A DNA stretch of 11,117 nucleotides, from the NCBI GenBank assembly GCA_003445555.1, contig DMDI01000242.1:1-11117 (forward strand). Direction: 5' to 3'. This stretch comes from Desulfotomaculum sp. GTDB lineage: Bacteria; Bacillota; Desulfotomaculia; Desulfotomaculales; Nap2-2B. Shown in pieces: positions 1 through 10,972 of the stretch. The first letter of the stretch is position 1. The number at the start of each line of letters is the position of its first letter. A model generated the notes under the pieces. It did no database searches and was not told where the DNA came from. It worked only from the letters and a program-made list of their open reading frames with translations. The position numbers and the translations under genes were made by a program.

Positions 1-603
<603 letters not shown>

Positions 604-660: not shown

Positions 661-1017
661 ATGAACTTAAGAGACATCCAAAGAATTCTTAAGGCTGAAG
701 TGCTTTGTGGTGAGCAATGGCTTTCGCGGGAAGTGAAGACCGGATTTGGATGCGACCTGATGAGTGAAATGCTGGCTTTTGCCGGTTCTCATACCCTTTT
801 AATTACTTCCCTGACTAATGAACATGTAATCCATACCGCCGAAATAATGGACGCGGTAGGAGTAGTGTATGTTAGTGGAAAACAACCGGCGAAAGAAATA
901 ATAGAAAAAGCTAATCATAATAATATACCCCTTTTATCCACCCCCTTTTTAATGTTTGAATGTTGCGGTTTGCTTTTTACCAGCGGACTTAAGGGGTGTA
1001 AAAGGGGTAATCCCTAA
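661..1017 (+). CDS. DRTGG-domain protein (first copy)
   Basis: A 118-residue stand-alone DRTGG-domain protein, a small alpha/beta fold also found beside CBS domains and in phosphotransacetylase N-termini, where it probably binds ligand. The characteristic start (L-R-D-I-Q-R-I-L, then a short strand and GCDLMSEML at about residues 30-38) matches the GD-L-S-V-M core of the family, and the rest alternates strands and helices up to a C-terminal FEC-CGLLFTSG segment. The function of stand-alone copies is unknown to me. It is the first gene of a cassette whose fourth gene (2860-3198) is a second DRTGG protein. The ATG has only a weak purine-rich site (AAGGCGAG) upstream. Its stop overlaps the next start in TAATG (1015-1019), implying translational coupling. 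Cytoplasmic; no membrane segment. Confidence 0.82.
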   Translation: MNLRDIQRILKAEVLCGEQWLSREVKTGFGCDLMSEMLAFAGSHTLLITSLTNEHVIHTAEIMDAVGVVYVSGKQPAKEIIEKANHNNIPLLSTPFLMFECCGLLFTSGLKGCKRGNP

Positions 1018-1487
1018 TGAATCACCTAAATGAAGAGGCTGAAAGTAAGCCCCAGTTAAAACTAGAGTTTGAAATAAAAGAAAGGGATTTTAGCGTAGCC
1101 GGAGAAGCAGCCTCAAAGGTTAAAAAAACGTTGCAGCAGTTGGGTTTAATGCCGGAGGCAGTTAGAAATATAGCCATAATCATTTATGAAGCGGTAATGA
1201 ATGTGGTTATTCACGCTACCCACGGACAGCTTAAAGTAATTATTATACCCGAGCAGGTCACGGTTTTAACCGAAGATGAAGGGATAGGGATTTCTAATGT
1301 AGAACTGGCCATGAAGGAAGGATATTCAACTGCTCCCCTTGAAATACGGGAAATGGGCTTTGGAGCCGGAATGGGTTTACCCAATATTAAGCAATGCTCC
1401 CATAAATTAAATGTTAAGTCTCAGGTAGGAGTAGGTACGGTTCTAGAAGCAATAGTATATTTGTCTTCTAAAGATAGAAAAAGTTAA
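1017..1487 (+). CDS. RsbW/RsbT-like HATPase (anti-sigma-factor-type serine kinase fold)
   Basis: A 156-residue protein consisting of one GHKL ATPase domain. The N-box is EAVMNVVIHA (residues 58-67, with E58, N62 and H66). The G1 box is EDEGIGI (86-92) and the G2 box GFGAGMGLPN (114-123). This compact form without a HisKA dimerisation helix is typical of RsbW/SpoIIAB anti-sigma kinases and RsbT switch kinases, which phosphorylate STAS-domain partners. Neither a STAS protein nor a sigma factor is in the window, so the partner is unknown. The start overlaps the stop of the previous gene (TAATG), and the next gene follows after 14 bp. I infer that it is the signal-output or switch component of the cassette with the hydrogenase-like protein at 1502. 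Confidence 0.85.
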   Translation: MNHLNEEAESKPQLKLEFEIKERDFSVAGEAASKVKKTLQQLGLMPEAVRNIAIIIYEAVMNVVIHATHGQLKVIIIPEQVTVLTEDEGIGISNVELAMKEGYSTAPLEIREMGFGAGMGLPNIKQCSHKLNVKSQVGVGTVLEAIVYLSSKDRKS

Positions 1488-1501
1488 GGTAGGAGTAATT
1501 T

Positions 1502-2860
1502 ATGTCTTATTACTTTCATTCAATAACCCTTGATTATGAAAAATGTAAGGGATGTACAAATTGTATTAAAAGTTGCCCTACAGAGGCTATCCGCGTTCAC
1601 GGCGGTAAAGCCAAAATAATAGGAGAACGCTGCATTGATTGCGGTGAATGTATCCGGGTTTGTCCCTATAACGCTAAAATTGTAGTTACCGATAGCCTGG
1701 ACAAGCTTTCCGAATTTAAGCATAAAATTGCCCTGCCAGGTCCTACTTTTTACGCCCAATTTAAAGAAGAGGGAAACATGGAAAACATTCTTGAGGCTTT
1801 TTTAAGCCTAGGTTTTGATGATGTTTTTGAGGTTGCGGTAGCGGAAGAAATAGTATCATTTATGACCCGTCATTACTTAATTACGAATAAACCAAAAAAA
1901 CCGCTTATTTCTTCGTATTGTCCGGTTATTTTACGCTTAATGCAAATTAAGTTTCCCGGACTTTTAGGCCAGGTTTCACCTTTTATGACTCCCAGGGAAA
2001 TAGCCGCCAGGTTAGCCAAGGAAGAGGCCGTAAAAAGTGAGGGTATTTCTTATAAAGACATTGGTGTTTTTTCTATTTCCCTTTGTCCGGCCAGAGTGAC
2101 CGAAATGAGGCTACCAATGGGCCTAAAAAATTCCGCCGTTGACGGGGTTTTTAATATGTCTTTGGTATACAAAGATATACTTAAGCAATTAACTAAAAAT
2201 CGTAAAAAAGAAAATAATAAGAATTTACAAAAGGCAACTGGTGCAGGAATGTCTTGGGGTTACATTACCGGAGAGGCTAAAGCGTTGAATTATGGTTCAA
2301 CTTTAGCCGTTTGCGGTATTCATAATGTGGTAAGTTTATTGGAAGAAATAGAAAGGGGTGAATTAAAAGACGTTGATTTTCTCGAACTCCGGGCTTGTAC
2401 CGGCGGGTGCGTAGGCAGCCCTTTATGTATCCAAAATGTATTTGTAGGCCGGGTAAGGTTAAAATATTTGGTTGATAAGTACCGGACAAAAACACCGTAT
2501 TACCAGAAAAGTGAGATGTTAAATTTTTACCAACAGGGCAGATTTTTTTCTACTGAACCTATCTACCCTAGGCCAGTAATGAAGCTTGATGAGGACGTAT
2601 CTAAAGCCCTGGTTAAAATGGAACGTTTAGATAAAATAACTAATGCACTGCCAGGCCTGGACTGTGGTGCCTGTGGCGCCCCAAACTGCCGGGCCTTGGC
2701 TGAAGACATTGTCCGGGGTTTGGCCGTTGAAACTGATTGTATTTTTAAGTTAAGGGAAAGGGTACAAATTTTAGCCGAAGAAGTACTCGATTTAGCGCGC
2801 AAAATGCCTCCGGCAATGGGTGATGACGCATCAAAAAAAAGAGAGGCAGGAGGAAAGTAA
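1502..2860 (+). CDS. [FeFe]-hydrogenase-like iron-sulfur protein with degenerate H-cluster motifs
   Basis: A 452-residue soluble protein with three parts. Residues 15-54 form a 2x[4Fe-4S] ferredoxin: CKGCTNCIKSC (15, 18, 21, 25) and CIDCGECIRVC (44, 47, 50, 54). Residues 75-310 resemble the iron-hydrogenase large-subunit domain. Residues 388-413 are an Fe4S domain (C388, C391, C396, C413), as in RnfB and corrinoid Fe-S proteins. The three H-cluster signatures are recognisable but altered: L1 is SSYCPVI (C140), L2 is SLCPARVTE (C195) and L3 is RACTGGCVG (C299, C303). The four cysteines expected to hold a [4Fe-4S] cluster survive, while the catalytic Cys before C140 and the Lys after C195 are lost. 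It is probably not a hydrogenase but an electron-transfer or sensing relative. An RBS (GGTAGGAGT) precedes the ATG. It is flanked by an ATPase and a DRTGG gene, the latter overlapping it. Confidence 0.85.
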   Translation: MSYYFHSITLDYEKCKGCTNCIKSCPTEAIRVHGGKAKIIGERCIDCGECIRVCPYNAKIVVTDSLDKLSEFKHKIALPGPTFYAQFKEEGNMENILEAFLSLGFDDVFEVAVAEEIVSFMTRHYLITNKPKKPLISSYCPVILRLMQIKFPGLLGQVSPFMTPREIAARLAKEEAVKSEGISYKDIGVFSISLCPARVTEMRLPMGLKNSAVDGVFNMSLVYKDILKQLTKNRKKENNKNLQKATGAGMSWGYITGEAKALNYGSTLAVCGIHNVVSLLEEIERGELKDVDFLELRACTGGCVGSPLCIQNVFVGRVRLKYLVDKYRTKTPYYQKSEMLNFYQQGRFFSTEPIYPRPVMKLDEDVSKALVKMERLDKITNALPGLDCGACGAPNCRALAEDIVRGLAVETDCIFKLRERVQILAEEVLDLARKMPPAMGDDASKKREAGGK

Positions 2861-3198
2861 TGACGCTTGGTGAGATGGTTATTTTACTTAATTTTGAAAC
2901 TTTAACGGGCGAAGTTAATTTGGATAAAGAAGTAAAGTCGGGATATGTTTCTGACCTTTTGTCTGATGTTATTGCCAATATTGAAGAAGGTGCCGTTTGG
3001 ATAACCATTCAAAGACACATAAATATTTTAGGGGTAGCTAAGCTTAAAGATATTGTAGCGATTATTATTCCGCGCAAGCTTGAATTAGAGCAAGAAGTTA
3101 TTGAAAGAGCTAAAAGTGAAAAGATTGCTATTTTAAGAGATTTTCGTCCGGCTTTTGAAATTAGCGGTCTTATTTATAATGCTTTAAAAAGAGGCTAA
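2860..3198 (+). CDS. DRTGG-domain protein (second copy)
   Basis: A 112-residue stand-alone DRTGG protein, homologous to the first gene of the cassette (661-1017). The shared pattern is a V-K-[ST]-G-[FY] turn followed by a D-L-[ML]-S motif: GFGCDLMSEML in the first copy, GYVSDLLSDVI (about residues 28-38) here. Outside the core the two have diverged, so this is an old duplication or a heterodimer pair. The start overlaps the preceding stop (TAATG, 2858-2862), and the AGGCAGGAGG ribosome site lies inside the end of the hydrogenase-like gene, giving strong coupling. No catalytic motif or membrane segment is visible. A ligand-binding or scaffold role in the cassette is inference. Confidence 0.8.
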   Translation: MTLGEMVILLNFETLTGEVNLDKEVKSGYVSDLLSDVIANIEEGAVWITIQRHINILGVAKLKDIVAIIIPRKLELEQEVIERAKSEKIAILRDFRPAFEISGLIYNALKRG

Positions 3199-3202
3199 AA
3201 AG

Positions 3203-3940
3203 GTGAAAGGCTTTTTTTGTGATTTTCATATTCATTCAACCCTTTCACCATGTGCCAGTCTGGAAATGTCTCCTCAAAATATTATTAAAAAGGCTAAAGA
3301 GGCGGGCCTGGATATTATTGCCATCACCGACCATAACATGGTGGAAAATGCTATTTATGTTCACGAGCTAGGGAAGAAGCTTGGTTTAACCGTACTATTT
3401 GGTATGGAACTACAGACTTGGGAAGAAATACATCTCTTAGTTTTATTTGATAATTATAAGACTGCTTTAGATTTTCAAAGCGAAATTTATGAATTCCTGC
3501 CGGCGGTTAAAAACAACCCGGTATATTTTGGCGACCAGGTGGTAGTGGATGAAAATGACAACATTGTGCGCATAGAAGAAAAGCTGCTTTTAAATTCCGC
3601 CCAGATTTCGCTTGATGAAGCTGTTTCCAGGGTTAAGTTAAAAGACGGGTTGGTTATCCCTTCTCATATAGACAGCCAAACCTTTAGTATTATAAGTCAA
3701 CTGGGTTATGTACCGGAAAATCTTTCCTTTGATGCTTTAGAAATACGTGATAAACAAAAAATAAAGGAGCTTTTACCGCTTGTTAACTTGAAAGGCATTC
3801 CCTTTGTTACTTTTTCTGACGCCCATTATCTTATAGATATAGGTAAAAGAAGAACTGTTTTTTATCTTCAAGAACCAAGCTTTAAAGAAATAATTAAGGC
3901 CCTAAAATTTAAAGAAGGACGCTATTTAGACTTTAATTAA
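3203..3940 (+). CDS. PHP-domain metal-dependent phosphoesterase
   Basis: A 245-residue PHP-domain protein. The metal-binding motifs appear in order: DFHIHST (H9, H11), ITDHN (D43, H44), GMELQTWEEIH (E69, H77), SHID (H155) and FSDAHY (D206, H208). All expected ligands are present, so it should be an active trinuclear-metal phosphoesterase like YciV/RNase AM or histidinol-phosphate phosphatase relatives. The substrate cannot be read from sequence. The GTG start has an AAGAGG site 8 bp upstream, only 4 bp after the DRTGG stop, so it belongs to the same operon. Its position between an Fe-S sensor-like protein and a kinase-type ATPase suggests it turns over a small phosphorylated molecule or a phosphorylated partner in this pathway, which is speculative. 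Confidence 0.87.
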   Translation: MKGFFCDFHIHSTLSPCASLEMSPQNIIKKAKEAGLDIIAITDHNMVENAIYVHELGKKLGLTVLFGMELQTWEEIHLLVLFDNYKTALDFQSEIYEFLPAVKNNPVYFGDQVVVDENDNIVRIEEKLLLNSAQISLDEAVSRVKLKDGLVIPSHIDSQTFSIISQLGYVPENLSFDALEIRDKQKIKELLPLVNLKGIPFVTFSDAHYLIDIGKRRTVFYLQEPSFKEIIKALKFKEGRYLDFN

Positions 3941-3957
3941 ACTGCCTTAAAGCAGTT
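3940..3957 (+). repeat. Short perfect inverted repeat between the PHP and ATPase genes
   Basis: AACTGC and GCAGTT form a 6-bp stem around the loop CTTAAA, directly at the stop codon of the PHP gene. No T-run follows, so it is not an intrinsic terminator. It could be an mRNA-processing or stabilising hairpin, or a chance repeat. It argues against the TTG at 3956, inside this repeat, as the start of the next gene. Confidence 0.4.
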
Positions 3958-3979
3958 GATTAAGTTGGGATTTAAAACT

Positions 3980-4510
3980 ATGATGGCTGAAATATGCGAC
4001 CACATTATGGATATAGCTATTAATTCTATAACGGCAGTAGCAAAAAAGATAGATATCTTTATTGTGCAAGATAAAAAGCAAGATATACTTACGGTAAGAG
4101 TGGTAGACAACGGAAAAGGAATGACCGGGGAGATATCTGAAAAAGTACAAGACCCTTTTTTTTCAACGAAAACTAGTCGCAAAATAGGATTAGGGATTCC
4201 GCTTTTTAAGGGGACAGCTGAACATTGCGGAGGTGATTTTTATTTAAAAAGTAAATTAGGAGAAGGTACCGAAATATTTGCTTCCTTTGCCCTGAGTCAT
4301 CCAGATTTACCACCTTTAGGTAATCTCAAGGACACTATTCTGGTGCTTATTATTAGCAATCCAGAAGTAAATTTTAGTTTTTCTTATATAATTAATGGAA
4401 AGAATTTTACGTTAAATACTAAAGAAATAAAGGCTCAGTTGGGAGACGTACCCATAAGCCACCCGGAAGTAATAAAATTTATAGGCCAATATCTTGACGA
4501 AAATTTATAA
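3980..4510 (+). CDS. Histidine-kinase-type HATPase (stand-alone)
   Basis: A 176-residue protein with an N-terminal GHKL ATPase domain and a C-terminal extension of about 70 residues that I do not recognise. Motifs in order: N-box HIMDIAINS, G1 DNGKGM, F-box DPFFSTK, G2 GLGIPLFK, then a G-E-G-T strand. The F-box makes it histidine-kinase-like rather than RsbW-like, but there is no HisKA helix and no phosphoacceptor His box, so the phosphorylation target is unknown. I chose the ATG at 3980 (ATG at 3983 is equivalent) because relatives begin a few residues before an H-I-x-D-I-A-x-N-S box; in-frame TTG codons at 3956 and 3965 are possible but lack ribosome sites. Related ATPases sit beside NAD-linked [FeFe]-hydrogenase genes in many Clostridia, and here hydC follows. 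Confidence 0.8.
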   Translation: MMAEICDHIMDIAINSITAVAKKIDIFIVQDKKQDILTVRVVDNGKGMTGEISEKVQDPFFSTKTSRKIGLGIPLFKGTAEHCGGDFYLKSKLGEGTEIFASFALSHPDLPPLGNLKDTILVLIISNPEVNFSFSYIINGKNFTLNTKEIKAQLGDVPISHPEVIKFIGQYLDENL

Positions 4511-4693: not shown

Positions 4694-5188
4694 TTGGACG
4701 CAAAAGATGGCGATCTACTAAAAGAATTTACTTCGGAACAAATTGCAAAAATGGATGAAATTATTAGCAAGTACAAAGGTAAACCAGGAGGATTAATTCC
4801 GGTTTTGGAAGAGGTTCAGGTAGCTCTTGAATATTTGCCTATTTCTGTCCAGAAAAGAATCGCTGAAGGATTAGATCTTCCGTTGAGTCGTGTTTATGGG
4901 GTAGTGACTTTTTATTCATTTTTCACAATGACTCCCCGGGGCAAACATTTGATACGCGTGTGCTTGGGTACGGCCTGTTATGTTCGAGGGGGTAAAGCTA
5001 TTGCTGAAAAAATAGAGAAGGAGTATGGTGTGAAAAAAGGTGAAACGACCGCTGATAGAATGTTTACTTATGAAACAGTTAGATGTGTTGGTGCTTGTGG
5101 ATTAGGACCGATGGTTCTTGTGGATGATAATGTTCACGGAAGAGTAAAACAAACAAAAGTCAAGGAGCTATTAAATCAATATGATTGA
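4694..5188 (+). CDS. hydC: HydC, NuoE-like [2Fe-2S] subunit of NAD-linked [FeFe]-hydrogenase
   Basis: A 164-residue homologue of the NuoE/24-kDa subunit. The N-terminal helical part (residues 10-75) contains the conserved LIPVLEEVQ...LP and VYGVVTFYSFF segments. The thioredoxin-like part carries four [2Fe-2S] ligands: C90 and C95 (CLGTAC), C131 and C135 (CVGAC). HydC docks on HydB and is essential for the NADH-linked bifurcating hydrogenase HydABC of Thermotoga, Acetobacterium and Moorella. The start is TTG at 4694, supported by AAAGGAGG at 4677-4684 with 9 bp spacing; no better ATG is in frame. The length is normal for the family. It opens the structural operon, followed after 24 bp by the small [2Fe-2S] protein. 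Confidence 0.93.
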   Translation: MDAKDGDLLKEFTSEQIAKMDEIISKYKGKPGGLIPVLEEVQVALEYLPISVQKRIAEGLDLPLSRVYGVVTFYSFFTMTPRGKHLIRVCLGTACYVRGGKAIAEKIEKEYGVKKGETTADRMFTYETVRCVGACGLGPMVLVDDNVHGRVKQTKVKELLNQYD

Positions 5189-5212: not shown

Positions 5213-5596
5213 ATGGCAAAGCTTACGATAGAAGATTTAAGAAAGATCAAGGAAAAAGTTCACGCCGAAACCTCCTTAAGAGAGGGTGGCTGGAGAGTAA
5301 AGGTGACCGTTCATATGGGAACTTGTGGTATTGTCTCCGGGGCAAGGGAAGTTATGAGCGCGTTGATAAAAGAGATTGAAGAGGCAGGCGTAACGGATGT
5401 TATGGTGTCAACATCTGGGTGTATGGGGTTGTGCAGCAGGGAGCCTTTGGTTACTGTGGAAGTTATGGAACAAGAGCCAATTAAGTACGAATATATGAAT
5501 CCAAACAAGATGAGACAGGTTTTCAAAAGACATATTTTACAGGGAGAGGTTCAAACCCCATTTGTTCTGGCCAAAGGTGCAGAAATTATAAAGTAG
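5213..5596 (+). CDS. Thioredoxin-like [2Fe-2S] ferredoxin-domain protein of the hydrogenase operon
   Basis: A 127-residue protein resembling the N-terminal thioredoxin-like [2Fe-2S] domain of HydB, and the small extra gene found between hydC and hydB in several clostridial operons (sometimes called HydD or HymA-like). The visible cysteines are C38 (HMGTCGI), C70 and C74 (SGCMGLC). The fourth ligand, usually five residues after C38, is glycine here, so a classical four-Cys cluster cannot form from these residues alone. My recollection is that close relatives share this three-Cys pattern. The ATG has an AGGAGGG site 8 bp upstream. An auxiliary electron-transfer or structural subunit is inferred; its need for activity cannot be judged from sequence. 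Confidence 0.8.
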   Translation: MAKLTIEDLRKIKEKVHAETSLREGGWRVKVTVHMGTCGIVSGAREVMSALIKEIEEAGVTDVMVSTSGCMGLCSREPLVTVEVMEQEPIKYEYMNPNKMRQVFKRHILQGEVQTPFVLAKGAEIIK

Positions 5597-5692: not shown

Positions 5693-8600
5693 TTGAAGGT
5701 GTTTCGGGCGCATTTATTACTTTGCGGAGGGACAGGTTGCCATGCTTCTGGAAGTCTTGCTGTAAAGAAGGCTTTGATTGCTGAACTGGATAAACAAAGT
5801 CTTTCAGAAGAAATTAAAATTGTTGAAACTGGTTGTAATGGATTTTGTGCCTTGGGTCCTATTATGGTGGTCTATCCGGAAGGCGTCATTTATACGCTGA
5901 TCAAGCCAGAGGATATTCCGGAATTAGTTGAAGAACATCTCGTTAAAGGAAGGCTTTTACAGAGACTCCTTTATAAAGAACCAATCACAGAAAAAATCAT
6001 TCCCACCATGCAGGAGGTACCCTTTTTTGCTCTTCAGGAATTAAGAGTATTAAGAAATAGAGGTCTTATCGACCCAGAAAGTATTGATGAGTACATTGCC
6101 AGGGATGGTTATGCCGGGATGGCCAAGGCCTTATCTGACATGTCCCCAGAAGCAATTATTAAAGAAGTTTTGGACTCAGGATTGCGAGGAAGAGGCGGAG
6201 CAGGTTTTCCTACCGGTCTTAAGTGGAAGTTTGCCGCACAGTCTAAGGGGGATATAAAATATGTCCTTTGTAATGCCGATGAGGGTGACCCTGGTGCCTT
6301 CATGGACAGAAGTGTCCTCGAGGCTGATCCCCATGCTGTTATTGAGGGTATGATCATTGCCGCTAAAGCTATTGATTCCCATAAAGGTTACATTTACTGT
6401 CGTGCCGAATATCCACTGGCTATTCAACGTTTGAATATTGCCATCGCCCAAGCAAAAGAATATGGACTTTTGGGAGAAGATATTCTAGGAACCGGTTTTG
6501 ATTTTGATCTTGAAATTTACCAGGGGGCGGGAGCCTTTGTCTGTGGGGAAGAAACGGCTTTAATGACTTCTATTGAGGGAAAAAGAGGAATGCCCAGGCC
6601 AAGACCCCCTTTTCCAGCTGTTTCAGGACTGTGGGGGAGACCAAGTATTTTAAACAATGTTGAAACTTTAGCTAATATTGGCCAGATCATATTAAGGGGT
6701 AGTGCCTGGTATGCCAGTGTGGGTACAGAAAAAAGCAAAGGGACCAAGGTCTTTGCCCTTACAGGCGATGTAAATAATATTGGTTTAGTAGAAGTTCCCA
6801 TGGGAACCGCGCTGGGAAGTATCATATATGACATCGGAGGAGGTATCCCTGGTGGAAAGAAGTATAAAGCCGCTCAATTGGGTGGGCCATCAGGTGGTTG
6901 TATTCCCGTTCAGCATTTAAATGCACCAGTTGATTATGAAAACATAGTAGAATTAGGGGCCATTATGGGGTCTGGTGGCTTGATTGTCATGAATGAGGAC
7001 AAATGTGCTGTGGATATGGCCCGTTACTTTATGGAATTTTGTCAGGAGGAATCCTGTGGAAAGTGTACCCCTTGTCGTGAGGGAACAAAAAGAATGCTTG
7101 AGATCCTCACCAACATTACTTTAGGGAAGGGTAAAGAAGGGGATATTGAGCTTCTCGAAGAACTGGCCAGAACCATTAAAGATTCCGCTCTTTGCGGACT
7201 CGGTCAAACGGCTCCTAATCCTGTTTTGAGTACCATCCGTTATTTCAGGGATGAATATGAGGCCCATATAAGGGATAAGCGTTGCCCCGCGGCAGTTTGT
7301 GCTGCTTTATTTAAGTCGCCCTGTCAGCATACCTGCCCGGTTGAAATGGATATCCCGTCTTATGTCGCTCTAGTTCAGGCAGAACGTTTTGAAGATGCTT
7401 ACAAGGTTCTTCTAAAGACCAATCCCTTTCCTTCTGTTTGCGGAAGGGTTTGTGATCACGAATGCCAGTCAAAGTGTCGAAGGGGACAGGTGGACGAGCC
7501 AGTTGCTATAAAGTATCTAAAGCGGTTTATTACCGATAATGCGGTAAGGCCTAAAATAGAACCAGTTCCTAAAACCAGAAAAGAAAAGATTGCCGTGGTT
7601 GGCGCGGGCCCTGCCGGTTTGACAGCGTCACGAGATCTGGCGCTGCGGGGCTATAAAGTCGTTGTATTTGAAGAACTTTCAGAACCCGGGGGGATGCTTC
7701 GCTGGGCAATCCCTGCTTATAGGCTTCCCCGTAACGTTTTGAAGCAAGAGATTGATAACATTCAGGCGCTAGGCGTGGAGATTATGTGCAACACGCGCGT
7801 GGGAAAAAATATTTCTTTTGAAAAAGTTAACGAAGAATTCGATTATATTTACTTAGCTCCTGGCGCGCATAAGAGCCAGAGAATGGGAGTTGAAGGAGAG
7901 GACATCAAGGGTGTTTATGGTGGGGTTGAATTTCTAAGGGATTTTAATACCTATGAAGACGCCTGGTTGAAAGGTGAAAAAACACTTGGCGCAAGAGTGG
8001 CCGTAATTGGTGGTGGAAATTCAGCTATTGATGCCGCTCGTTGTGCCGCTCGTTTAGGTGTTGAAGTTATTATACTTTACCGTCGTCTAAGACAAGATAT
8101 GCCTGCGGCAATAGAGGAAATTGAAGCGGCGGAAGAAGAGGGAGTCAAGATTGAGTACTTAGTGGCCCCTATTAAGATTAATGAAAATAATGGAAAGGTA
8201 AGTGGGATTACTTGTCAACGGATGAAGCTTGGTGATTTTGACCGAAGCGGAAGAAAAAGACCTGTACCTATTGAAGGTTCCGAATTCACGCTTAGTGTGG
8301 ATACTGTCATCGCTGCCATCGGTCAGGTATCAGATCTGACTTTTGTTCCTGATAATAGCGGCGTGAAAGTTAATAAATGGGATTGTTTTGAGTTGGCAAG
8401 CGGGAGTAAATCCCAAACAACAAATCCTAAATTCTTTGCGGGTGGAGATGCCGTTACAGGGCCGGATACGGTGATTGGGGCAATTGCCGCGGGACATAAG
8501 GCGGCAAAAGATATTGATAACACTATCAGGATAAGCAATGGAGAACCGTTATATGAGGCACCTTCGGAAGAGGGGATTGACATCCCGCTTATCATTGATG

Positions 8601-8749
8601 AAGAGGTAAAGGAATGTCCTCAAACAAAAATGCCGAAAATAAAAGGTGCTGCCAGGCGAAATAGTTTCGATGAAGTAGAACTTGGTTTCATCCGGGAAGA
8701 GGCCATCCAGGAAGCGCGTCGCTGCCTGCGATGTGATGCAGAAATTTAA
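5693..8749 (+). CDS. hydB: HydB fused to an NfnB/GltD-like FAD/NAD(P)H module
   Basis: A 1018-residue flavin/Fe-S subunit. (a) Residues 1-90: thioredoxin-like [2Fe-2S] domain with C11, C16, C48 and C52. (b) About 110-520: NuoF-type NADH/FMN domain with GRGGAGFPTG (165-174), DEGDPGAFMDR (196-206), GAGAFVCGEE (278-287) and the [4Fe-4S] ligands C455, C458, C461 and C501. (c) About 540-620: an NfnB/GltD-type N-terminal Fe-S domain with C544, C548, C583, C587, C591 and C595. (d) 633-940: an FAD/NAD(P)H oxidoreductase with GAGPAG (637-642), GGGNSAID (773-780), YRR...DMPA and GGDAVTGP (917-924). (e) A tail ending RRCLRCD. Ordinary HydB has about 600 residues and ends in a 2x[4Fe-4S] ferredoxin, which is missing here. 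The start is TTG, 11 bp after AAGGAGG (5675-5681). HydB takes electrons to NAD(H) and is the bifurcation site in HydABC; the fused half suggests NADP(H) as well, which is inference. Confidence 0.92.
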   Translation: MKVFRAHLLLCGGTGCHASGSLAVKKALIAELDKQSLSEEIKIVETGCNGFCALGPIMVVYPEGVIYTLIKPEDIPELVEEHLVKGRLLQRLLYKEPITEKIIPTMQEVPFFALQELRVLRNRGLIDPESIDEYIARDGYAGMAKALSDMSPEAIIKEVLDSGLRGRGGAGFPTGLKWKFAAQSKGDIKYVLCNADEGDPGAFMDRSVLEADPHAVIEGMIIAAKAIDSHKGYIYCRAEYPLAIQRLNIAIAQAKEYGLLGEDILGTGFDFDLEIYQGAGAFVCGEETALMTSIEGKRGMPRPRPPFPAVSGLWGRPSILNNVETLANIGQIILRGSAWYASVGTEKSKGTKVFALTGDVNNIGLVEVPMGTALGSIIYDIGGGIPGGKKYKAAQLGGPSGGCIPVQHLNAPVDYENIVELGAIMGSGGLIVMNEDKCAVDMARYFMEFCQEESCGKCTPCREGTKRMLEILTNITLGKGKEGDIELLEELARTIKDSALCGLGQTAPNPVLSTIRYFRDEYEAHIRDKRCPAAVCAALFKSPCQHTCPVEMDIPSYVALVQAERFEDAYKVLLKTNPFPSVCGRVCDHECQSKCRRGQVDEPVAIKYLKRFITDNAVRPKIEPVPKTRKEKIAVVGAGPAGLTASRDLALRGYKVVVFEELSEPGGMLRWAIPAYRLPRNVLKQEIDNIQALGVEIMCNTRVGKNISFEKVNEEFDYIYLAPGAHKSQRMGVEGEDIKGVYGGVEFLRDFNTYEDAWLKGEKTLGARVAVIGGGNSAIDAARCAARLGVEVIILYRRLRQDMPAAIEEIEAAEEEGVKIEYLVAPIKINENNGKVSGITCQRMKLGDFDRSGRKRPVPIEGSEFTLSVDTVIAAIGQVSDLTFVPDNSGVKVNKWDCFELASGSKSQTTNPKFFAGGDAVTGPDTVIGAIAAGHKAAKDIDNTIRISNGEPLYEAPSEEGIDIPLIIDEEVKECPQTKMPKIKGAARRNSFDEVELGFIREEAIQEARRCLRCDAEI

Positions 8750-8768: not shown

Positions 8769-10523
8769 ATGTCATCAGTAACCATAACTATAGATAATAT
8801 CAAAGTTGAAGCGGAACCGGACAGCACCGTGTTAGAAGCGGCAAAAAAAGTAGGCATTAAAATACCAACCTTGTGTGCCTGGCCTGAGATTAAACACATC
8901 CCTGGCGCTTGCCGGGTTTGTGTTGTAGAGGTTGAAAAAATGCCTAACCTAGTTGCGTCTTGTGTATACCCTGTTAATGAGGGTATGGTTGTCAAAACAA
9001 ACACGGAGCGGGTCCGCAAAGCAAGAAGAATGAATGTGGAACTTCTTTTGGCAAACCATCCACCAGAGTGCAATTTTTGCATCAGAGGAGGCAATTGTGA
9101 GCTTCAAAAGGTGGCAGAGCAAGTCGGCGTAAAAACAGTGAGGTTCGAATATCCTGTTTTTAACAAGGAAGAAATGATTGACCAGTCTAGTCCTTCTATT
9201 GTTCGGGATAACAGAAAATGTATTAACTGTCATCGTTGTATTACCGTCTGTGAATCTATTCAGACAGCTGAAGTCCTAACCGCTGCCTGGAGAGGAAGTG
9301 ATGTAAGAGTGGTGCCAGCCTTTGATCTTCCTCTTAACGAGACAAATTGTACTAACTGTGGTCAATGCGTTATGGCTTGCCCCGTTGGTGCCCTTTACGA
9401 GAAAGACGATGTAGATGAGGTTTGGAAGGCACTTCAGGATCCTTCAAAGCACGTGGTGGTGCAAGAGGCCCCGGCCATACGCGCTGCCTTGGGAGAGGAA
9501 TTCGGGATGCCTCCTGGCTCTTTGGTTACAGGGAAGATGATTGCCGCCCTTCGCAGACTCGGATTTGATAAAGTTTTCGATACAAACTTTACTGCCGACC
9601 TCACCATTATAGAGGAAGGAAACGAGCTTCTGAAAAGAGTCAAGACAGGGGGAGTACTTCCTTTGATTACTTCCTGTAGTCCTGGATGGATAAAGTTTTG
9701 TGAGCACTTTTATCCCGACCTTTTGGAGCACTTATCAACCTGCAAGTCTCCGCAGCAAATGTTTGGAGCTATGGCAAAAACTTATTACGCCGAATATGCT
9801 GGCATTGATCCAAAAGACATTACGGTGGTTTCCATTATGCCCTGTACCGCAAAAAAATTTGAGGCTCAAAGGCCCGAGATGTGCGATAGCGGGTACCGTG
9901 ATGTAGATTACGTGTTAACCACCAGAGAACTGGCCCGGATGATTAAAGAAGCGGGGATTGATTTTATCAATCTTCCTAATGAAGCTTACGATGCTCCTAT
10001 GGGTCAATATACGGGTGCGGCCACAATCTTCGGTGTCACAGGTGGTGTTATGGAAGCAGCTCTGCGCACCGTTTATGCCGTAGTCACAGGGGAAAACCTG
10101 AAAGATCTTAACATAAGGCCTGTACGCGGGCTGGAGGGATTGAAAGAAGCTACTATCCCCGTGGGAGAACTAGGGAATGTTAAGGTGGCTGTAGCCCACG
10201 GTTTGGGGAACGCCCGCAAGATCATGGACCAAATTCGGGAAGGAAAGAGCGATTATCATTTTATTGAGATTATGGCTTGCCCAGGAGGATGTATAGCCGG
10301 CGGTGGAGAGCCCATCCCTACAAATAATGAAATCCGGACACTTCGTACGGAGGCTCTTTATTTAGATGACGTTGAAGTACAGGATTTCCGTCAGTCTCAT
10401 GAAAATCCCGCTATTAAAGAAGCCTATGATAAATTTCTGAAGGAACCACTAGGTCACAAATCTCATAGGCTTCTCCATACCCATTATACCAAAAGAGGTT
10501 TGGAGTTGCCGCATAAGGAATAG
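8769..10523 (+). CDS. hydA: HydA, catalytic subunit of [FeFe]-hydrogenase
   Basis: A 584-residue enzyme that reversibly makes H2 from protons and electrons. Domains: plant-type [2Fe-2S] (C36, C48, C51, C65); His-Cys3 [4Fe-4S] (H97, C101, C104, C110); 2x[4Fe-4S] ferredoxin (C151, C154, C157, C161 and C194, C197, C200, C204); and the H-cluster domain from about 220. The signatures are intact: L1 TSCSPGW (301-307), L2 MPCTAKKFE (357-365), L3 EIMACPGGCIAGGG (500-513). The serine in L1, where many enzymes have a second cysteine, is as I recall common in multimeric NAD(P)-linked enzymes. There is no C-terminal [2Fe-2S] domain like that of the Thermotoga subunit. I chose the ATG at 8769 because GGAGAGGAG precedes it (8751-8759) and the [2Fe-2S] domain starts there; an in-frame upstream codon at 8682 would overlap hydB by 68 bp. 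The H-cluster needs HydE, HydF and HydG, not seen here. Confidence 0.95.
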   Translation: MSSVTITIDNIKVEAEPDSTVLEAAKKVGIKIPTLCAWPEIKHIPGACRVCVVEVEKMPNLVASCVYPVNEGMVVKTNTERVRKARRMNVELLLANHPPECNFCIRGGNCELQKVAEQVGVKTVRFEYPVFNKEEMIDQSSPSIVRDNRKCINCHRCITVCESIQTAEVLTAAWRGSDVRVVPAFDLPLNETNCTNCGQCVMACPVGALYEKDDVDEVWKALQDPSKHVVVQEAPAIRAALGEEFGMPPGSLVTGKMIAALRRLGFDKVFDTNFTADLTIIEEGNELLKRVKTGGVLPLITSCSPGWIKFCEHFYPDLLEHLSTCKSPQQMFGAMAKTYYAEYAGIDPKDITVVSIMPCTAKKFEAQRPEMCDSGYRDVDYVLTTRELARMIKEAGIDFINLPNEAYDAPMGQYTGAATIFGVTGGVMEAALRTVYAVVTGENLKDLNIRPVRGLEGLKEATIPVGELGNVKVAVAHGLGNARKIMDQIREGKSDYHFIEIMACPGGCIAGGGEPIPTNNEIRTLRTEALYLDDVEVQDFRQSHENPAIKEAYDKFLKEPLGHKSHRLLHTHYTKRGLELPHKE

Positions 10524-10570: not shown

Positions 10571-10720
10571 AATCAAAGTAAGCCCTGCGAGAAGGGATGG
10601 CCTGATTCCAAGGGGTGTTTAAAAAAGTTGTTTTATTTACTTTAAAACCCACTTTTCGCGTGGCGAGAAGTGGGTTTTTTGTTAAACAAAAAGGACCGGA
10701 AAAAAGGGGATTTGAATAAA
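10571..10720 (+). promoter_or_regulatory. Structured 5' leader with terminator/antiterminator pairing (riboswitch-like, unassigned)
   Basis: About 150 nt lie between the predicted start of transcription and the regulator's TTG. AAAGTAA (10575-10581) pairs with TTACTTT (10637-10643). Inside, CCCT (10583-10586) and AGGG (10593-10596) form a hairpin whose loop is GCGAGA. The segment GCGAGAAG (10587-10594) is an exact copy of the first eight bases of the terminator's 3' arm (10663-10670), so it can pair with the 5' arm CTTTTCGC (10652-10659) and block the terminator. This is the signature of transcription attenuation by a ligand, tRNA or protein. I compared it from memory with SAM, fluoride, THF, ZTP, Moco, cobalamin and T-box patterns and found no convincing match. 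An independent small RNA of about 105 nt ending at the terminator is the alternative. Confidence 0.6.
10644..10680 (+). terminator. Intrinsic terminator upstream of the hydrogenase-system regulator
   Basis: CCCACTTTTCGC (10648-10659) pairs with GCGAGAAGTGGG (10663-10674) as 12 bp with one G-T wobble and a 3-nt loop. AAAA before the stem can extend it into the run of six T at 10675-10680. It ends hydA transcripts and, because it lies inside the leader of the next operon, also controls entry into the regulator gene. Confidence 0.88.
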
Positions 10721-10972
10721 TTGACCCAAACACGGATTGGGGTAGTAGGAGTAGTGATAACTGACCGTAAAAACCAGTCGGCTAACGTTAATAATATTTT
10801 AAGCGAATATGCTCAAATTATTATTGGCCGAATGGGTATTCCTTACCGGGAAAAAAATCTGGGAGTAATAGCTTTAATCATTGAAGGAAACACAGACGAA
10901 ATTGGGGCCATGACCGGTAAGTTAGGTAGTTTAAAAGGCGTACAAGTAAAAACAGCCCTTGTTTCTAAATAA
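10721..10972 (+). CDS. TM1266-family iron-only hydrogenase system regulator
   Basis: An 83-residue ACT-like/NikR-C-like protein of the TM1266 family, named 'iron-only hydrogenase system putative regulator' because it sits beside [FeFe]-hydrogenase maturation genes. Family features are clear: R-I-G-V-V-G-V-V-I near the start, then VNNILSEYAQIIIGRMGIPY, GVIALIIEG and a final GKLGSLKGVQVKTALVSK. It has no DNA-binding domain of its own; the family name is from genomic context and its mechanism is, to my knowledge, not established. I chose the TTG at 10721 because AAGGGGA ends 10 bp upstream and the length equals the family norm of about 80. An in-frame TTG at 10712 is too close to that site, and the in-frame GTG at 10670 lies inside the terminator stem. 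The next gene starts 81 bp later. Confidence 0.9.
   Translation: MTQTRIGVVGVVITDRKNQSANVNNILSEYAQIIIGRMGIPYREKNLGVIALIIEGNTDEIGAMTGKLGSLKGVQVKTALVSK

Follow-up and report, generated by a model that had tools for sequence, protein, structure and literature searches.

Wang et al. are said to have described, in 2013, the trimeric electron-bifurcating [FeFe]-hydrogenase HydABC of Moorella thermoacetica, and Rosenbaum and Mueller, in 2024, reportedly described a hexameric NADP+-reducing hydrogenase, HydABCDEF, from the same species. A related architecture is found in the StnABC/Nfn-Bfu enzymes (Sporomusa ovata, 8oh5; Caldicellulosiruptor, 9bov; Thermococcus sibiricus, 9n5u), where a HydBC-like core is combined with a permuted GltD-type module. 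The bifurcating subunit BfuB has been defined by its C-terminal ferredoxin-type domain, for which IPR017896 is required (PMC9304861). Here we describe a gene, hydB::gltD, on an 11,117-nucleotide Desulfotomaculum sp. contig (DMDI01000242.1; the window, numbered along its forward strand), that joins a HydB core and a GltD-type module for flavin adenine dinucleotide (FAD) and NADP(H) in one chain and adjoins a gene for HydA. With moderate confidence, and judging from sequence, we favour reading its product as part of a HydABC variant in which the ferredoxin tail of HydB would have been exchanged, at a linker, for an Stn-type NADP(H) module, and which would exchange electrons among H2, NAD(H) and NADP(H). 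Neither a HydB-GltD fusion beside HydA nor a biochemical test of one was found in the accessible literature, subscription papers lying outside the scope of the search.

The frame at 5693-8749 is open throughout, begins at TTG as listed and encodes 1018 residues. Pfam places 2Fe-2S_thioredx, Complex1_51K, SLBB, NADH_4Fe-4S, Fer4_20 and Pyr_redox_2 along it in that order; the same search detects no C-terminal 2x[4Fe-4S] ferredoxin domain, and Fer4_20 and Pyr_redox_2 stand where it would be. The gene and its parts are as follows.

5693-8749, + strand: hydB::gltD fusion gene (open reading frame list, Pfam, alignment)
5693-5977, + strand: N-terminal thioredoxin (Trx)-like [2Fe-2S] domain with C11, C16, C48 and C52 (Pfam; across 42 aligned fusions none of the four Cys varies)
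6170-6679, + strand: NuoF/51K domain for flavin mononucleotide (FMN) and NADH, with GDPGAFMDR (A202, M204) (Pfam and alignment)
7013-7267, + strand: NADH_4Fe-4S domain with C455, C458, C461 and C501 (Pfam and the 42-fusion alignment)
7265-7300, + strand: HydB linker from H525 to C536, HIRDKRCPAAVC, the point of tail exchange (alignment)
7289-7549, + strand: Fer4_20 domain in which two [4Fe-4S] clusters are expected, with C544, C548, C583, C587, C591, C595 and K610 (Pfam, alignments)
7586-8494, + strand: FAD/NADP(H) oxidoreductase domain with GxGPxG at 637-642, GGGNSA at 773-778, and R797 and R798 (Pfam, alignments)
8657-8737, + strand: C-terminal segment ending in CLRC (C1011, C1014), which by permutation corresponds to the NfnL N-terminal segment (alignment)

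A first-pass annotation of this DNA had already placed the end of the NuoF-type half at residues 525-536, the start of the GltD half exactly where the HydB ferredoxin tail begins, and a CLRC tail at the end of the chain; the domains and the linker alignment agree with the first two, and the tail lies at residues 1011-1014. Within the linker, H525, C531 and C536 are invariant across the 42 fusions and are also present in solved HydB chains. The StnB/HydB linker is reported as Zn-stabilised, and since the other Cys are assigned by homology to the two GltD clusters, these three residues are left for a linker of that type. An AlphaFold2 model built from 42 sequences is confident (mean predicted local distance difference test score 89.7, predicted template modelling score 0.86), and its fold matches are in line with the sequence domains; in VIA-align, the alignments to three HydB-type chains have their last model residue at 1014-1015, end points from which we draw nothing.

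The source genome is 70% complete and lies in 310 contigs totalling 1.69 Mb (the window being contig C16), a state that would favour an assembly or binning artefact joining two genes. Against this stand the recurrence and the conservation of the junction. Four proteins (P0001-P0004), on contigs of up to 61,475 bases, are 100% identical; the same-genus genome G001 carries the gene at 94% identity; and the best 120 of 8000 scored proteins are 997-1025 residues long with 79-100% identity. When genomes of named species were scanned with the junction alignment, 73 of the 80 loci examined among the matches listed were fused in frame without a stop and seven were not fused. In the phylum, sampled as genomes at least 80% complete, 64 of 398 genomes match at E <= 1e-275, spread over 42 of 268 genera; contig ends truncate a few of these matches. 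Cultured species are included, among them Pelotomaculum terephthalicicum, which belongs to the same order as the source genome. We regard the chance of an artefact as negligible and rule it out: the HydB core and the GltD-type FAD/NADP(H) module are joined in one real chain, and neither the frameshift nor the sequencing join near the junction against which the first-pass annotation had cautioned is needed to account for it.

The HydB half has the marks of a bifurcating core. The GDPGAFMDR and GGPSG motifs of the window align with solved bifurcating HydB chains; the nearest solved HydB chains come from the NiFe enzyme of Acetomicrobium and from the hydrogenases of A. woodii and T. kivui. Residues described as bifurcating-type are A/E232, M234, GGPSG and Phe367 in T. 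maritima HydB numbering (PMC7311640), and the first three are present in the fusion core when it is aligned to the solved chains; near the fourth, the window has Y340. The N-terminal Trx-like [2Fe-2S] site, the FMN/NADH domain, the NADH_4Fe-4S cluster and BfuC (hydC) of the Bfu enzymes are all kept; the C-terminal 2x[4Fe-4S] ferredoxin-type domain is missing. Because BfuB is defined in PMC9304861 by that domain, the fusions fall outside its survey. The same loss would fit an uncoupled hydrogenase of dual specificity, in which H2 reduces either NAD+ at the FMN or NADP+ at the FAD, independently and without bifurcation: the published definition of a bifurcating core excludes a tailless chain, and non-bifurcating homologues are described as lacking B2-B5 (PMC9304861). 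Moreover, H2 could be formed at low pressure from either nucleotide singly, the computed equilibrium being ~3 Pa with NADH alone and 3.3 kPa with NADPH alone (25 C, pH 7, usual published potentials of the textbook type). Such an enzyme nevertheless leaves unexplained the retention of features reported to be lost in non-bifurcating HydB (PMC7311640), namely the Cys of the N-terminal [2Fe-2S] site and the A/M/GGPSG residues, and we consider it rather unlikely.

The first-pass annotation took the second half for an NfnB-type module and saw flavin sites from two bifurcating enzymes united in one chain. NfnAB does share the Fer4_20 and FAD/NADP(H) domains with the fusion; it differs by a Glu ligand and an N-terminal Cys pair, and by its NfnA subunit, which has no counterpart in the fusion complex (the genome's own NfnB-type gene is separate, at window positions 1-603). 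Aligned with StnC (8oh5_C), the GltD half runs unpermuted from the first Cys motif to CLEC, and K610 coincides with K170 with no gap between. Aligned with NfnL (4ylf_B, 5jca_L), its C-terminal segment instead pairs with the NfnL N-terminus, ahead of the main domain, query residues 452-489 of the GltD half falling on residues 6-43 of 4ylf_B. The segment EAxRCxQC is not found at the N-terminus of the module in the alignment, its Cys pair lying at the C-terminus, and by these alignments the module is circularly permuted relative to NfnL. In an alignment of 30 GltD-type rows, Lys together with Cys at both C-terminal columns occurs in 27 (15 fusions, 7 Stn-like and 5 formate dehydrogenase-type, two of the last being the same protein), and Glu with an N-terminal EAxRCxQC in all three NfnB-type rows. 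The window carries K610, as does every one of the 42 aligned fusions. In StnC, the corresponding Lys (K170) ligates the cluster next to the FAD, where NfnB has Glu, and this FAD is reported as a non-bifurcating flavin (PMC10482914). On sequence grounds the module is of the permuted, Lys-liganded type of the Stn transhydrogenase, and we reject an NfnB-type bifurcating FAD in view of K610 and the permuted Cys pair; the idea of two bifurcating flavin systems is not supported by the match to StnC. The likeness to Stn that had also been proposed is real with respect to the module type. It does not extend to the arrangement of subunits, for in Stn, as described, the GltD module is joined to StnC, a NuoG-like subunit standing in for HydA, and the ferredoxin tail of StnB is retained, whereas here GltD sits on HydB and HydA is present.

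The earlier proposal of one complex with two bifurcating flavins, coupling H2 and ferredoxin to both NAD(H) and NADP(H), starts from a true premise, the presence of a HydB FMN core and a GltD-type FAD in one chain, and ferredoxin could dock at the outer GltD [4Fe-4S] cluster as has been proposed for NfnB. Lys in place of Glu next to the FAD and the permuted Cys pair are however those of StnC, and the ferredoxin domain is missing by Pfam; this proposal is improbable in our judgement. Ferredoxin coupling is the least likely of the activities considered, because the domain that meets ferredoxin in StnB and HydB is the very one replaced here. Binding of NADP(H), in contrast, is likely from the GGGNSA motif and R797/R798. 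Two Arg are reported to be important for NADP(H) (PMC8965080); of the GltD-type rows, the Stn-like row L138 lacks the RR signature and the fusion L040 has RH.

The remaining subunits of the putative complex are encoded on either side of the fusion.

4694-5188, + strand: hydC, NuoE-like [2Fe-2S] protein (Pfam)
5213-5596, + strand: small Trx-like [2Fe-2S] protein, HndB-like (Pfam, profile search)
8769-10523, + strand: hydA, group A6-like, with H-cluster motifs present (start probably the ATG at 8769)

With the group-A6 model, for which the cut-off is 765, HydA reaches 910.9 bits; it carries the three H-cluster motifs TSCSP, MPCTAKKFE and EIMACPGGC. By its H-domain and these motifs it is a group A [FeFe]-hydrogenase, in keeping with the earlier prediction of a catalytic HydA next to the fusion. 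The suspicion that many relatives lack the third motif was dismissed, since CPxGC occurs in 40 of 41 aligned HydA rows and the remaining row has no letters there; the 41 were chosen by the presence of motif 1, and the L106 HydA, which does not match the motif 1 pattern, was left out. The Trx-like subunit between hydC and hydB presumably corresponds to that of the tetrameric Hnd-type hydrogenase of Desulfovibrio fructosovorans, and we know of no GltD module in the HndC of that organism.

Domain order, FMN/NADH signatures, loss of the tail, a Lys-type permuted GltD module, an NADP signature and an adjoining HydA are what we read from the sequence. In the HydABC variant that we propose, H2 would be turned over by HydA, whose Fe-S chain would hand electrons on to HydB, with NAD(H) reacting at the FMN there. 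Via the [2Fe-2S] centres of HydB and HydC and the two [4Fe-4S] clusters of the module, electrons would also reach the non-bifurcating FAD, where NADP(H) would react. NADP(H) would take the place of ferredoxin, with the reversible sum 2 H2 + NAD+ + NADP+ = NADH + NADPH. We infer this electron path and the reaction of both nucleotides in one complex, and the coupling may or may not be tight; a separate nfnAB could link NADPH to ferredoxin elsewhere. If NAD(H) did not react and the FMN were instead a relic or served as a relay, the enzyme would be an NADP-only hydrogenase. A precedent of sorts exists in the different, unfused six-gene hydrogenase of M. thermoacetica, reported as NADP+-reducing, yet a relic site would not explain why the FMN/NADH motif residues are invariant across the 42 fusions, and we give an NADP-only enzyme little probability.

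The first-pass annotation had suggested searching for NuoF-GltD fusions beside hydA, and such fusions are common. A hydA gene lies directly downstream of 37 of the 73 listed fusions and after one or two genes in four more (41 in total). A molybdopterin/NuoG-type (formate dehydrogenase) alpha subunit stands beside 11, and only the N-terminal domain of one beside a single fusion; in nine no alpha subunit is found within 4.5 kb, and in 11 the contig ends within 1.5 kb. The 73 fusions carry 22 phylum labels (five have none), labels being taken from record titles, so that 'Deltaproteobacteria' titles appear as Myxococcota. In the order of the source genome, a full-length match is present in 10 of 41 genomes, its own included, and in all nine other loci fetched hydC precedes and hydA follows the fusion. 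The databases name these proteins NuoF, HndC or FAD-dependent oxidoreductase, and genome-based models will therefore treat them as complex I or as bifurcating hydrogenases of the ordinary kind.

Several points weigh against the HydABC variant. At Y340 of the window, the HydB chains of three solved bifurcating hydrogenases have Phe (StnB also has Tyr at this position). The three NfnB-type rows all lie apart, but when the GltD half is compared with the PDB, its top scores of 384, 349, 348, 340 and 329 bits do not cleanly separate StnC from NfnL. The expected ligands are C544, C595, C1011 and C1014 for the outer cluster and C548, C587, C591 and K610 for the inner, but these sets are drawn by homology, in analogy with dihydropyrimidine dehydrogenase and its numbering. 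The partner varies, with 11 formate dehydrogenase/NuoG-type and nine without an alpha subunit among the 73, which means that a hydrogenase partner is not obligatory for the module. Finally, the NAD(H)/NADP(H) activity is itself a proposal from sequence, which we think somewhat probable, and its coupling is a possibility.

Some partner arrangements deserve mention. In L081 (8541-11285) and L051 (2539-4139), the gene after the fusion encodes a molybdopterin alpha subunit and is split by TGA at CARL*H, which we take to be the likely selenocysteine site of a formate dehydrogenase; these are probably selenocysteine formate dehydrogenases, the formate counterpart of the hydrogenase. In L065 (2214-3781; Chloroflexota, Dehalococcoides sp. 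JdFR-54) two methylenetetrahydrofolate reductase genes follow the fusion, and an alpha subunit was not found at this locus. The Syntrophales/delta loci L050, L053, L054 and L055 keep hydC and/or trx with the fusion and have no alpha subunit within 4.5 kb downstream. A second, short NuoF-type HydB (~530-566 residues) accompanies the fusion in six loci, having its own hydA in L041 and L042 and lying between fusion and hydA in L060, L062, L095 and L109. The beta subunit of the Moorella NADP-dependent formate dehydrogenase (L151; 710 residues in M. caeni) shares NADH_4Fe-4S and the Lys-type permuted GltD with the fusion, but has no FMN domain and a formate dehydrogenase alpha partner. This enzyme is reported to have a 76 kDa beta subunit, and NADPH to be its only reductant (PMC13040438).

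Moorella provides nearly matched enzymes with either tail. In the genome that we take to be M. thermoacetica DSM 521 (G057), the locus holds no fusion: hydC, a hydB of 619 residues with a ferredoxin tail, and hydA lie between flanking genes that are 87-98% identical. In the genus of M. caeni the fusion is present in 10 of 11 genomes, one of them cut after residue 603, and the order in seven Moorellaceae loci is hydC, HATPase, trx, hydB::gltD, hydA. Between G057 and M. caeni (DSM 21394, the L061 genome; so named in PMC11328732), HydA is 93%, the HydB core 89% and HydC 71% identical. The G057 HydB is composite: residues 1-123 match the small Trx protein encoded in the fused operon at 76% identity, residues 124-557 match the fused core at 89%, and for residues 558-619 the counterpart, at 74%, is the ferredoxin tail of the other HydB of M. 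caeni. From these identities it is a mosaic of a fused-type core and a paralogue-like ferredoxin tail, a form shared by a 24-member protein cluster (97%) and one further protein (89%). In the core tree it nests within the fused Moorellaceae clade (9 rows, support 98), which makes the ferredoxin tail the derived state there.

The soluble hydrogenases of M. thermoacetica are reported to number two, of which one bifurcates with NAD+ and ferredoxin and the other reduces NADP+ (PMC13040438, PMC11328732). Two HydB-type genes are present in G057 at E <= 1e-150; the second, unfused, with 592 residues and a ferredoxin tail (L170), lies in a six-gene cluster that fits the hexameric NADP+-reducing enzyme by gene number. 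The fusion is thus not the published hexamer, G057 having no fusion and the HydB of the six-gene cluster being unfused. With the hexamer assigned to that cluster, the trimer at the fusion locus would by elimination be HydABC, and its core would be competent at FMN and NAD, the tail being the part changed. A trimeric bifurcating hydABC is reported for every isolate genome of one study (PMC11328732); the genus genomes compared here suggest that the hydB of most Moorella species is the fused form.

Trees were built quickly, with many open forks, from 106 core rows (six truncated rows dropped) and 60 GltD rows. On the core tree the fusion label needs five changes, three of them forced by well-supported branches, against a mean of 29.6 for shuffled labels, none of 500 shuffles being as low as five. 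On the GltD tree it also needs five, at least one forced, and L107 groups with formate dehydrogenase-type modules. The window and G001 fall inside a mostly Syntrophales/delta clade of the core tree (15 rows, support 97), apart from their genus mates G002 and G003, which lie in a 7-row clade (support 100). The window fusion is ~82% identical to Syntrophales-type proteins versus 57-58% to those of G002 and G003. Lateral transfer of the fusion in the window lineage is likely from these sequences.

Tentatively, the fusions may form a large, unrecognised sister class of HydABC/Bfu with NADP(H) in place of ferredoxin as second partner, whose members would bifurcate electrons to NAD(H) and NADP(H) or confurcate them from both, with formate dehydrogenase versions, with the linker as the joint of a cassette, and with the HydABC of M. 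thermoacetica as a recent back-swap. Bifurcation to ferredoxin by HydABC has been explained by the mobile ferredoxin-like tail. A natural class with the FMN core and HydA but an NADP(H) module would allow a test of whether the core bifurcates alone, the tail only picking the partner, and Moorella supplies the comparison. If the proposal is true, coupling of NADH and NADPH would give syntrophs and acetogens a different H2 operating range, with a computed equilibrium of ~100 Pa compared with ~3 Pa for NADH alone and ~16 kPa for NADH plus ferredoxin.

Other features of the window lie outside the putative complex.

1-603, + strand: 3' end of an NfnB-type gene, a separate enzyme (alignment; complete nfnAB pair in G001)
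661-4510, + strand: accessory genes, in order DRTGG, HATPase, Fe-S/H-domain-like protein, DRTGG-like, PHP, HATPase (domain searches)
10670-10972, + strand: TM1266-type iron-only hydrogenase system regulator (profile search)

The nfnAB pair of G001 (L038, 15089-17352) encodes an NfnA-like protein of 281 residues and an NfnB-type protein of 480 residues directly upstream of the hydrogenase cluster. Relatives of the accessory genes adjoin the fusion in L038 and in Moorellaceae. The gene at 1502-2860, between the DRTGG and HATPase genes, encodes an Fe-S protein that has an FeS domain and matches Fe_hyd_lg_C, and together with these neighbours it is likely to form an H2/redox sensor set. Elsewhere, a 932-residue protein of G018 (L148, 2193-4988) combines an NADH_4Fe-4S piece and a GltD-type oxidoreductase with a C-terminal methyl-accepting chemotaxis signalling domain, and is possibly a redox sensor.

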